DNA from: Halanaerobium sp.
Lineage (GTDB): Bacteria; Bacillota; Halanaerobiia; Halanaerobiales; Halanaerobiaceae
Direction of reading: 5' to 3'
Assembly (NCBI GenBank): GCA_018399955.1
Contig: JAGYNO010000002.1
Location: 32,427-96,426 of the forward strand
DNA length: 64,000 bases
Part shown: positions 12,669 to 17,791 of the stretch, piece by piece
Position numbering within the stretch: the stretch's first letter is position 1
How the letters are laid out: each line of letters opens with the position of its first letter
Program-made: the position numbers and the translations under genes
Notes under the pieces: model-generated
The model's database searches: none
Told to the model about the DNA's origin: nothing
The model's input: only the letters and a program-made list of their open reading frames with translations

Positions 12669-12872
12669 CTATAACTTTACAACGTTTTCGGCTTGTGGAC
12701 CACGATCGCCTTCAACGATTTCGAATTCTACTTCCTGCTCATCTTCAAGAGTTTTGAAACCTTCGTCCTGAATAGCTGAGAAGTGAACGAAAACATCGTC
12801 TCCGTCTTCTCTTTCAATAAATCCATAACCTTTTTTCGCATCAAACCATTTTACTTTACCTGTGTAAATCAT
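12669..12872 (-). CDS. Cold-shock protein (CspA family)
   Basis: [30 protein letters not shown] (RNP1/RNP2 motifs). Confidence 0.97.
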
Positions 12873-12979: not shown

Positions 12980-13117
12980 TTACTCAGATTTTTCACCATT
13001 TATAGCAAAAGTCTGGCGGTCTTTAAATTCCTCTTTTTTACCTTTATTCCAATCTGAAACTGGAGAAAGATAACCAACAACTCGAGAATACACTTCACAT
13101 TTCTGTCTTTTTTTCAT
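12980..13117 (-). CDS. Stand-alone C-terminal glycyl-radical segment of class III ribonucleotide reductase (NrdD tail), 45 aa; absent from the supplied ORF track
   Basis: Manual minus-strand translation MKKRQKCEVYSRVVGYLSPVSDWNKGKKEEFKDRQTFAINGEKSE*, matching the NrdD C-terminus pattern with the RVxGY glycyl-radical motif; strong AGGAGG ribosome binding site upstream. Confidence 0.85.
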   Translation of the reverse strand: MKKRQKCEVYSRVVGYLSPVSDWNKGKKEEFKDRQTFAINGEKSE

Positions 13118-13215
13118 TTTTTTCCTCCTCATAGAATCTAATTAATCATAAAAATCAGTTATTAATAGACTACATTAATATTTTAAATTCACACCATATT
13201 AAATCTCTGCTAAAT

Positions 13216-13914
13216 TCAATCTCTGATATAGACATGTTCAATATATTTTTCTGCAGTATTTTTAAATGCTTCTAATTCAAGAGGTGTAAAAGGTCTTTTT
13301 TCTTCAAAATCAGGATCCAGGGTGTTGAGGGGCCGAAAGTTTTGGATGAAATATCTCGCAGCACCTTTTGCTGAAGCTGCAATTTTTTCTATTTCTGCTT
13401 GATCATGAAGCCCCGGCACAACAGTAGTCCTTAGTTCATAATCAATATTAGAATTCATGACTATTTTTAAAGATTCTTTGATTTTAGCAGTTGTATTTTT
13501 AGGAGCCAGCAGAGAATATTGAGACCAGCTCATTTTTAAATCAAGAGCAAAATAATCAATGAGTTCCTCTTCAAGTAGTTCTTTGAGCAAAATTGGTCTG
13601 CTGCCATTTGTATCCAGTTTGATTTCCAAATCATAATTATTACTTATTTGCTGTATAAATTTTTTTAAATCTGGCTGAAGTGTAGGCTCACCCCCAGTAA
13701 TTGTGACTCCATCAATTAGTTTTTTCCTGCTCTCAAGAAATTTATATAACTTATTTACTGATAAATAATCAACTTCTGACAGATCATCTAAAGAAATCAG
13801 CTGACTGTTATGACAGTAACTGCAGAAAAAATTACAGCCGGCTGTAAATATAACTGAAGAAATTCGCCCAGGAAAATCTATCAGTGAGGTCTTCCTTAAT
13901 CCGGCGATTTTCAA
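13216..13914 (-). CDS. nrdG: Anaerobic ribonucleoside-triphosphate reductase activating protein (radical SAM)
   Basis: KTSLIDFPGRISSVIFTAGCNFFCSYCHNSQLI, CxxxCxxC motif, VTITGGEPTLQ; overlaps the nrdD stop. Confidence 0.93.
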   Translation of the reverse strand: MKIAGLRKTSLIDFPGRISSVIFTAGCNFFCSYCHNSQLISLDDLSEVDYLSVNKLYKFLESRKKLIDGVTITGGEPTLQPDLKKFIQQISNNYDLEIKLDTNGSRPILLKELLEEELIDYFALDLKMSWSQYSLLAPKNTTAKIKESLKIVMNSNIDYELRTTVVPGLHDQAEIEKIAASAKGAARYFIQNFRPLNTLDPDFEEKRPFTPLELEAFKNTAEKYIEHVYIRD

Positions 13915-16900
13915 TTTGCTGCCTCCTTTTTTTCGATCTCTTCATCTTCTGCTGCAGCTTCTGCATCACATTTAGGACAGTACTGATGCTCACCTGCTAT
14001 ATAACCATGGATAGGACAGATGCTGAAGGTTGGAGTTATTGTATAATATGGCAGCTTAAAATTCTCGGCTATTCTTCTCACCAATTTTTTTGTGCTTTTA
14101 ACTGACGGCATGTTTTCACCTAAAAATCCATGCAGTACAGTATTATGGATAAAAACTAAGGTGTTTTTACCTGCCAGATAATTGTGATTTTTTTCGGTAC
14201 TTAAATCGTAAAACATATTATCTTCTACATTTACTTTATCAATATTTTTGACCTTTACCGCAGATATTTTATTTGCTGAATTATTGGAGTAATCTAGACC
14301 TGATTTTATTTCTTCGATAAAACTCTGGCTTTCAGTTTTTAATTTCATGATTTCCATTAAAGGCATTCTAATAATGAAATACTTTTCTCCACTAAATATA
14401 TTTTCAGGCTGTTCTTTTACATATGCAGAAATACCAGCCCTGCTGCAGATTTCAAGAAGATCATCAGCAAATTTTCTATGTTTTGTATAATATTCTGCAT
14501 AACCCTCACTGTCATTTATAGAACCGCTGCTGTCGAGCATTCCTTTGATTAAACTGTAAACATTCTTGCTGTTCAGCTTTGATTTTATCTCCTCTGGTAT
14601 CTCAGATTTATAATTTGCTTCTTCAAATGGAAATATATTTTTTAAGAAAAGATTGTTAACTGATTTCTTCTTATTTTTCTTAAAACTGTATTTAGCTCTA
14701 CTTCTAAGCTGATTTAAATCATTTTTAAAGTGAAAATTTATAATACTCTGTGCTTTAAATAGATGTTCTTCTTTCTTGTGATAATTATAAAGCAATTGTC
14801 CAGCAGCATAATTAACTGCTTTAGCTGTTTCAACTTCAAAAATATCATTATCAGCCATAAAATATCCGAACAGCCACATTAAATCATCAGTTAACTCATT
14901 ATCTTTCTCACTGTAGAGGTTATCACTATTTTGAAGTATGTAATCTCCAGCTTTTAAATCATCAGCTCTTTTTTCTATCACCTTATATTTGTGAAATTCA
15001 TTATAATTTGTGCGGCAGTCTTTATTATATTTAATATGTTCTGCAAATCCTCTGTCACCATTTATTTTTGCTCCACATACAGGACATTTATCTTCAATCA
15101 TTTTTCTTTCGAGAACAAAAAATGGATGCCAGTCACTTGTTACGATATCTAAACCCTTTTCTGCCCTGACTCTTATCTTATCATTATGGCTAACATCAAT
15201 TGGAATAGCTTCAGTAATAAGATCCCATTCAGATTTATTTTTTTCAGGATTAAAACTTAAAACATAAATTGGTTTTAACTCATTGTAATTATTTACTATT
15301 TTTTCAATTTTGATCAGGCCCTTATCAGTAAGTACCTTGTTTCCTTTTTCAATACATCCACCTGTATATCCAGACTGAAGTTCATCCTGAAGCTCAAGAG
15401 CTGTAAATATATCATCAGTTAGTCCTACCGGAAGCTGAGTAGAATTAGTGTAATATGGATCTGCTCCTTCTTCTAAGACCCTCTGCTGATTGGCTGCTGT
15501 TATTTTATCACCAAATTTTTCTCTATCTAGTCTCGCAAACCTATAAGCTGTTCCCTCTGCAGGTGTGGCCTCGAGATTATATAAGTTATCAGTTTCCTCT
15601 TGATATTTCTGCAGCCTTTTCCTCATAGCATCCATTACCTCCAGAGAAAATTCTCTACCTTCTGGAGAAGCAATATCTTTTCCAATAAAGTTTAAAAGTG
15701 CCTCGTTCATTCCATTTAAGCCGATTGTATTAAAGTGGTTTTTCCAGTACTGATCAAATCTCTTTTTTACATCTCTTAGATAAAATTTTGAATAAGGATA
15801 TAGTCCCTGATCAGTTAAATTCTCCAGCACTTTACGCTTGACTTCTAAACTTTTTTTAGCTTGATCCATTAAATAATATACTCTCTGCATAAAATCTTCT
15901 TTATTTTGAGCAAGATAAGCAATCCTCGGCATATTTAAAGTTACCACACCTATCGATCCGGTCATCGGATTAGCTCCAAATAAGCCGCCACCTCTTTTAC
16001 GCAGTTCTTTATTATCAAGACGCAAGCGACAGCACATACTCCTCGCATCTTCGGGATTCATATCCGAATTCACAAAATTCGAGAAATAAGGGACCCCATA
16101 TTTTGCGGTCATTTCCCAGACCGGATCCAGTTTTTTATTTTCCCAGTCAAAATCTTTAGTTATATTATAGGTTGGAATAGGAAAAGAAAACATTCTTCCC
16201 TTTGCATCACCTTCCATCATTACTTCGGCAAACGCCCTATTTAAAATATCCATTTCTTCCTGGAATTCTCCGTAACTTTTATCTCGATATTCACCACCAA
16301 TAATTACTGACTGGTCTTTTAAATAATTGGGAACTTCAAGATCCATCGTAATATTTGTAAAAGGGGTTTGGAATCCTACCCGGGTCGGTACATTCATATT
16401 GAACAGAAATTCCTGTACTGCCTGTTTAACTTCTCTATAACTTAAACTATCATAAGCTATAAATGGAGCTAGATAGGTATCAAAATTTGAAAAAGCCTGA
16501 GCACCAGCCGCCTCTCCCTGCAGTGTATAATAAAAGTTCACAATCTGACCCAGAGCAGTTTTAAAATGCCTGGGTGGAGCACTTTCCACTTTTGTCGGTA
16601 CTCCTCTAAAACCAGTCCGCAGTAAATCCTCTAAATCCCAGCCACAGCAGTAAACACTTAAGTTACCGAGATCATGAATATGTAAATCACCATTTTTGTG
16701 CAGTTTATTTATTTCTTCTGAATATATCTCCTGCAGCCAGTACTGTCCTGTAACCTGAGAGGCTATAAAATTATTTAAGCCCTGCAGTGAATAGCTCATA
16801 TTTGAATTTTCATTTACCTTCCAGTCATTCTTGCCAAGATAATCATTCATCACATTTAAAGCATCAGAAAAAAGCTTTTTTGTATCTCTTAGCTTACTGT

Positions 16901-17303
16901 GCTGTTCGCGGTACAATATGTAAGCTTTTGCAATATCTGAATATCCTTTTTCAATAAGTATTTTCTCAACCAAATCCTGTATCTGTTCAACTTCAGCTGC
17001 TTCTCCATCTTTAATAAATATTTTAAGATATGAGAGTACCTCAGAAGTAATTTCAGCAGCTATCTTCTCTCCTTCGATATCTAGTGCTTTAGCCGCTTTT
17101 AATACAGCCGATTTTATTTTATCTGAATCAAAATTTACCTTTTTCCCATCTCTTTTCTTTACATACTTTATACTCATCATAAAGCCTCCATTTGATTTAT
17201 TACAAATTTTGCTTTGAATATATGGCTCTTTAATCTCTATATTTTTGGATAAATTACATACAGCTCTATTCACTAAAAAATTAAAAGTAATTTTCCATAA
17301 CAA
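13911..17303 (-). CDS. nrdD: Anaerobic (class III) ribonucleoside-triphosphate reductase interrupted by an intein and lacking the C-terminal glycyl-radical motif
   Basis: ATP-cone (KYVKKRDGKKVNFDSDKIKSAV) and NrdD motifs (HKNGDLHIHDLGNLSVYCCGWDLEDLL; YTGG|TVLHGFLGE); C-terminus ends after CPIHGYIAGEHQYCPKCD. The likely start is MMSIKYVKKRDGK near 17178; the track start is too far upstream. Confidence 0.95.
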   Translation of the reverse strand: MLWKITFNFLVNRAVCNLSKNIEIKEPYIQSKICNKSNGGFMMSIKYVKKRDGKKVNFDSDKIKSAVLKAAKALDIEGEKIAAEITSEVLSYLKIFIKDGEAAEVEQIQDLVEKILIEKGYSDIAKAYILYREQHSKLRDTKKLFSDALNVMNDYLGKNDWKVNENSNMSYSLQGLNNFIASQVTGQYWLQEIYSEEINKLHKNGDLHIHDLGNLSVYCCGWDLEDLLRTGFRGVPTKVESAPPRHFKTALGQIVNFYYTLQGEAAGAQAFSNFDTYLAPFIAYDSLSYREVKQAVQEFLFNMNVPTRVGFQTPFTNITMDLEVPNYLKDQSVIIGGEYRDKSYGEFQEEMDILNRAFAEVMMEGDAKGRMFSFPIPTYNITKDFDWENKKLDPVWEMTAKYGVPYFSNFVNSDMNPEDARSMCCRLRLDNKELRKRGGGLFGANPMTGSIGVVTLNMPRIAYLAQNKEDFMQRVYYLMDQAKKSLEVKRKVLENLTDQGLYPYSKFYLRDVKKRFDQYWKNHFNTIGLNGMNEALLNFIGKDIASPEGREFSLEVMDAMRKRLQKYQEETDNLYNLEATPAEGTAYRFARLDREKFGDKITAANQQRVLEEGADPYYTNSTQLPVGLTDDIFTALELQDELQSGYTGGCIEKGNKVLTDKGLIKIEKIVNNYNELKPIYVLSFNPEKNKSEWDLITEAIPIDVSHNDKIRVRAEKGLDIVTSDWHPFFVLERKMIEDKCPVCGAKINGDRGFAEHIKYNKDCRTNYNEFHKYKVIEKRADDLKAGDYILQNSDNLYSEKDNELTDDLMWLFGYFMADNDIFEVETAKAVNYAAGQLLYNYHKKEEHLFKAQSIINFHFKNDLNQLRSRAKYSFKKNKKKSVNNLFLKNIFPFEEANYKSEIPEEIKSKLNSKNVYSLIKGMLDSSGSINDSEGYAEYYTKHRKFADDLLEICSRAGISAYVKEQPENIFSGEKYFIIRMPLMEIMKLKTESQSFIEEIKSGLDYSNNSANKISAVKVKNIDKVNVEDNMFYDLSTEKNHNYLAGKNTLVFIHNTVLHGFLGENMPSVKSTKKLVRRIAENFKLPYYTITPTFSICPIHGYIAGEHQYCPKCDAEAAAEDEEIEKKEAAN
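14142..15356 (-). mobile_element. Intein (405 aa) with LAGLIDADG-type homing endonuclease motifs, inserted in NrdD between YTGG and TVLHGFLGE
   Basis: Starts CIEKGNKVLTDKGLIKIEKIV (block A), TSDWHPFF (block B), LMWLFGYFMADND and LIKGMLDSSGSIN (dodecapeptides), NMFYDLSTEKNHNYLAGKNTLVFIHN (blocks F/G), then extein Thr; length divisible by 3. Confidence 0.95.
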
Positions 17304-17336
17304 ATTAAAAACTATAATTTCTCAGCAAAAATAAAA

Positions 17337-17359
17337 CCCTCCGTAAAAATCACGAAGGG
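17337..17359 (-). terminator. Intrinsic terminator in the nrdD leader (riboswitch expression platform)
   Basis: Minus strand CCCTTCG-tgatttttа-like loop-CGGAGGG followed by TTTTATTTTT. Confidence 0.75.
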
Positions 17360-17419
17360 CTAAATATACACTAATACCATTTTATTATGATACACCCCCT
17401 CATATCCCGTGAGATTTTG

Positions 17420-17575
17420 GTGTTCAAATACAGGCAGGTCTTCCGGCTCGGTTTATAAAAAAATAACAAACAGTCTACCTTCCCAGTTTCCCAGTGGTAT
17501 AATTGACTGCTTAAAAACCTTACGGCGGCGGGACCGCAGAGGACTTTAACCTCTTTCCCGTTTTAATATAATTAT
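17420..17575 (-). promoter_or_regulatory. Cobalamin (AdoCbl-type) riboswitch upstream of nrdD
   Basis: Minus strand contains GGGAAagaGGTtAAAgtCCtctGCGGtCCCGCC ... CCACTGGGAAACTGGGAAGG ... GAGCCGGAAGACCTGCCTG, the conserved cobalamin aptamer blocks including the B12 box. Confidence 0.93.
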
Positions 17576-17791
17576 ATTTAACTGCTGAAAACACAGAAAA
17601 TATAATTATAACCCATATTTAAAACTATTCAGTTGTAAAATAATTTAATTTGTAATTAATTTTAATAAATTAAATTTAAAATTTTCCCTATAATTTGTTT
17701 ATCTTTATTACTTATCTTTATCTTATAATATTATTCCACTAAAAATCAAGCACAAATTTTTGCTCTTTATGATAAGTAATTGCTAAATAAG

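Follow-up and report, generated by a model that had tools for sequence, protein, structure and literature searches.

The window analysed here is a stretch of 64,000 nucleotides from a Halanaerobium sp. contig, and the genes that concern us lie on its minus strand in the order nrdD, nrdG and a small open reading frame (ORF) of 45 amino acids (aa), which we will call the tail gene. The nrdD frame is open from 17303 to 13911, which is longer than the likely gene (13911..17180), whose ATG start was judged from the sequence. Its product is the core of a class III ribonucleotide reductase (RNR), with an ATP-cone and without a glycyl-radical motif. Within NrdD there is an intein of about 406 residues (residues 650–1055, approximately 14139..15356), identified by matches to TIGR01445 and TIGR01443. 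It is internal, possesses both splicing regions and a LAGLIDADG-like domain, and leaves a mature NrdD chain of about 680 aa. Other members of the window's taxonomic class also have large inserts in NrdD, at the intein site or elsewhere.

The start of nrdG (13216..13914) coincides with the nrdD stop, and this gene, which encodes a radical-SAM activase of the NrdG2 type (TIGR02495, E 5.3e-58), sits between the core and the tail gene (12980..13117). As an earlier note on this DNA had pointed out, the tail gene has an AGGAGG Shine–Dalgarno sequence of its own. It lies at 13124..13129, with the ATG 6 nt further on. Mechanical ORF calling gives a tail of 50 aa, from 13132, because the call begins upstream of the Shine–Dalgarno sequence. 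Directly 3' of the tail gene, on the same strand, one sees by eye a gene for a small cold-shock-like protein (12669–12872). At the other end of the operon, a cobalamin riboswitch (17416..17603; RF00174, 77.9 bits) lies upstream of nrdD, and the interval between them holds a terminator-like hairpin (17335..17361), taken from a consensus scan whose number of hits in the region is not above chance.

The NrdD chain matches positions 1–530 of the Pfam NRDD profile (E 8.8e-179) and stops after its zinc motif. The glycyl-radical motif RVxGY was not found in this chain; it is present, as RVVGY, on the separate 45-aa ORF, which matches positions 530–562 of the same profile (E 3.6e-11) and the NCBIfam NrdD model (E 4.4e-10), and aligns to residues 610–642 of T. 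maritima NrdD, around Gly621. The earlier note had observed that NrdD appears to be split, with its radical motif on the small ORF, and had proposed searching the peptide against the NRDD profile; the complementary coverage bears out the split. In T. maritima NrdD, the Gly621 loop dips into the barrel and meets the finger loop (PMC4493059). The C-terminal domain of P. copri NrdD runs from the zinc site through a buried radical loop to a surface tail (PMC11226230), and the break in the window therefore falls between the zinc site and the radical loop. An AlphaFold model of the H. kushneri core (pLDDT 83) finds its best structural matches among class III RNRs.

Sixty relatives were searched and 48 stretches read, and 59 genomes of the class, including that of the window, were counted. 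Split core and tail occur together in 41 of the 59 (own genome included), and the tail is carried by every one of the 41 genomes that have an untruncated core of the window type. The remainder comprise two genomes with a core and no tail, both cores running off contig ends, one in which only a tail was found, on a contig of 3.3 kb, three that lack a tail but have a full-length NrdD of an unrelated kind, and 12 with neither part. Named carriers include Halanaerobium, Orenia and uncultured Halanaerobiales. The order nrdD-nrdG-tail, which the earlier note had proposed to look for in related genomes, recurs in most of the 41, though G039 and G042 swap the last two genes (nrdD-tail-nrdG). A Shine–Dalgarno-like site precedes the tail in all 41. 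Assembly or annotation error was rejected as the source of the split, since the identical arrangement is seen in single-contig genomes with both pieces (n = 6; G006, G007, G017, G025, G039, and G044). A second full-length NrdD was found neither in the window's own genome (76% complete) nor in same-genus genomes. Among 150 genomes sampled from the wider phylum, the NrdDs listed are nearly all full length, and the split therefore marks the window's class.

The tail is under strong purifying selection. Within the genus of the window, pN/pS is 0.04 and median dN/dS 0.023 (28 codons, 12 sequences), with 88% of the differences at third codon positions; across the class, the values are 0.14 and, for unsaturated pairs, 0.065 (28 codons, 41 sequences), with 67% at third positions. 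The small ORF is also conserved.

We consider it highly probable that nrdD, nrdG and the small ORF encode a class III RNR with a two-chain catalytic subunit. This reading, already offered in the earlier note, draws on the complementary profile coverage, the class-wide retention of both parts, the purifying selection and the lineages (see below) that yielded no RNR other than a split NrdD.

The tail might instead be a spare part, mending NrdD that oxygen has cleaved and not serving as a constitutive subunit. Trans-acting glycyl-radical spare parts are known in a bacterium and a phage, namely GrcA/YfiD and phage T4 Y06I, which serve pyruvate formate-lyase (PMC8683613). They resemble the tail, as proposed here, in being small stand-alone glycyl-radical domains that act in trans; they differ in belonging to another glycyl radical enzyme, and in mending enzyme molecules that possessed such a domain when they were made and were damaged later. 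Several observations speak for a spare part. In two Patescibacteria (L109, 3892–6435; L146, 3997–6433), a full-length NrdD is followed by a further ORF that carries a radical loop and a zinc-like motif of its own, extra orphan tails are present in several genomes, and many viruses have a tail only. No NrdD core was found within the available stretch, up to 6 kb per side, at 73 of 80 viral tail loci. Whole IMG/VR records, which may be fragments, hold only the tail in 19/21 and 20/21 cases (two sets), as does the record of the ANMV-1 virus. Within the class, two orphan tails have phage genes as neighbours (baseplate, holin, and endolysin; DnaB and RusA). We suggest that viral tails may complete, repair or take over the host NrdD. 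PHROGs yielded no dedicated tail family among the hits; one weak hit is to phrog_4132, of unknown function. At one locus (L060, 3123–3641), in a phage replication region, a single ORF combines a tail with a domain that matches phrog_289.

For the window, however, the spare-part explanation is very unlikely. Neither here nor in the class is there an intact NrdD of the window type to repair; a stand-alone glycyl-radical domain of the GrcA/YfiD kind is present, but the partner NrdD is encoded without one (it ends at NRDD position 530), and the tail should therefore be an obligate subunit. The analogy with GrcA/YfiD, which the earlier note had drawn loosely, remains loose for the window and is better suited to viral tails and to those found beside full-length NrdDs.

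Even less probable, in our judgment, is that core and tail are joined after transcription or translation, by frameshifting, read-through, an intron or protein trans-splicing, so that the enzyme is an ordinary one. One might be led to this by the inteins within NrdD, and by the 11 loci with adjacent core and tail in which the two share a frame. Across the genome and viral collection loci, however, the frame from core to tail may be 0, 1 or 2, and the spacing in cellular loci ranges from an overlap to about 880 nt, some of these loci having nrdG between the two parts. In the window's class, nrdG intervenes and the tail has its own Shine–Dalgarno-like site throughout. Rfam detected no intron in the nrdD locus of the window. 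Split inteins and trans-splicing were rejected because the facing ends of core and tail are short charged segments with no intein halves. The varying frames and spacing and the intervening nrdG rule out frameshifting and read-through, and by these sequence features the split NrdD is most likely a two-chain enzyme. The earlier note had judged a simple sequencing frameshift unlikely, as the nrdD stop overlaps the nrdG start.

The other RNR genes of these organisms also deserve attention. Among the split genomes of the class, those with a completeness of 90% or more also carry a class I/II-type RNR gene (class II in all three that were read), so that the class III enzyme may be dispensable in them. 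In 21 genomes the class I small subunit (PF00268) is missing. The window's own genome has a class II RNR gene (L083, 417–3130, contig C139), and the idea that class III is the only RNR of the organism is therefore not supported. A short insert breaks up this class II gene, and the same is seen in G007; the insert, for which Rfam gave no match, resembles a small group I intron. Among the Elusimicrobiota, a split NrdD was found in 28 of 60 sampled genomes, with the tail adjoining in 27 of the 28. In 21 of these 28 genomes, whose completeness was not reported, PF02867 revealed no class I/II RNR. One of the 21 has a further NrdD copy, which leaves the two-piece enzyme as the only RNR found in 20 genomes, again of unreported completeness.

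Least probable of all is that NrdD of the window type has decayed or been repurposed, with the tail a leftover and dNTPs supplied by the class II enzyme: the class II genes of this genome and its relatives and the complete loss of NrdD in some relatives would agree with this, but the tail is strongly selected and perfectly co-retained with the core, the active-site region of the core is conserved, and in some Elusimicrobia no RNR other than the split NrdD was detected.

The cobalamin riboswitch ahead of nrdD is not confined to the window: four genomes of the same genus (G001, G003, G006, and G007) have one there too. Its position suggests that class III is used when B12 is short, and in the window the operon is probably the alternative to the class II enzyme under low-B12 conditions.

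How might a two-chain enzyme work? The large chain would provide the ATP-cone, the barrel, the active-site cysteines and the zinc knuckle, and the 45-aa chain the loop bearing the radical glycine. The tail would dock where the C-terminal loop usually enters the barrel, NrdG with SAM would place the radical on the tail glycine, and from there the radical would reach the active-site cysteine in the way known from ordinary NrdD. Docking, activation by NrdG and catalysis by the two chains are all predicted from sequence. The new ends offer a hint as to docking. In the class, 40 of 41 cores have a negatively charged extension beyond CPxC (mean −4.0) and 39 of 41 tails a positively charged start (mean +2.6), and an acidic core end facing a basic tail start suggests that the two may dock electrostatically. 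Elusimicrobia and Desulfurellales appear, by eye only, to have charged, helix-like extensions on both new ends. In Victivallales, the core stops short of the fourth zinc cysteine and the tail starts with MxKCG, so that the zinc site may span two chains. A zinc cysteine on the tail was considered as a feature specific to split forms and rejected, being common to fused relatives. A Micrarchaeota NrdD (L105, 3925–6111) is a single chain with a long linker and groups with the split forms; it appears to be a natural fusion of both parts, its linker resembling two split ends joined. In a model of the fused Micrarchaeota NrdD, pLDDT is below 50 over the glycyl-radical part.

The solved class III RNRs whose descriptions were consulted have the radical glycine and the active site on one chain. 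The enzyme of the window shares with ordinary NrdD/NrdG systems the ATP-cone, barrel, zinc motif, RVxGY loop and NrdG activase, with strong matches to NrdD models, and differs in carrying the radical glycine on a second polypeptide, whose gene follows nrdG. A parallel among RNRs is NrdJa/NrdJb of Pseudomonas aeruginosa, in which a small C-terminal part is likewise a separate subunit and both are needed; it is a class II enzyme, however, and its small part carries out reductive dithiol exchange and bears no radical (PMC4520616). That enzyme was termed a unique split RNR in a free-living organism (PMC4520616). Phage nrdD genes may also have their coding sequence in pieces (PMC3653736, PMC12363816), although those interruptions were attributed to introns or inteins, and partly shown to be spliced, whereas here there would be two separately translated chains. 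One gut-phage preprint describes a fragmented nrdD with no evidence of splicing between fragments of 230 aa and 91 aa (PMC12363816), which would fit a stand-alone tail. A search of the open-access literature turned up neither a split NrdD nor an NrdD spare part, and the split NrdD appears to be a new version of class III RNR.

If a natural two-chain class III RNR exists, its radical-bearing piece could be purified, labelled, mutated and swapped alone, and NrdG activation, radical transfer and oxygen damage would therefore be separately testable. It would also bear on the possibility, left open in the YfiD work (PMC8683613), that glycyl radical enzymes other than pyruvate formate-lyase have spare parts. 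Viruses with a tail only suggest a new way of acting on the DNA-precursor supply of the host. For annotators, an NrdD that seems dead because it lacks a radical site may in fact be active, and one should keep in mind that gene callers easily miss tails of 45 aa.

Split NrdD turns up in many phyla of bacteria and archaea. A quick maximum-likelihood tree of 104 NrdD cores gives eight changes between split and fused forms, gain and loss not being told apart, of which at least five are forced by starred branches. The window's class forms one clade of split cores (support 99), which also includes an Acetomicrobium and viral sequences. Judged from the sequences, splits appear to have arisen several times, in Elusimicrobia, Patescibacteria, DPANN archaea, Victivallales, Desulfurellales and the E. 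coli-type NrdD. We give an even chance to the broader view that the class III radical piece is an exchangeable part in wide use, which might be an obligate subunit after independent splits, a repair part beside intact NrdDs, and a viral gene that completes, repairs or takes over the host NrdD. Three further NrdDs of 767–773 aa (L252, L253, and L254) stop just past the zinc motif, and in about 2.5 kb downstream of them no glycyl-radical motif was recognised. The E. coli-type NrdD is split independently in G151 and G193, with a second ORF of 102 aa; at two loci (L250, 1519–4450, and L251), a core of 694 aa is followed by the 102-aa ORF, which contains RRVTGYF, and then by nrdG.
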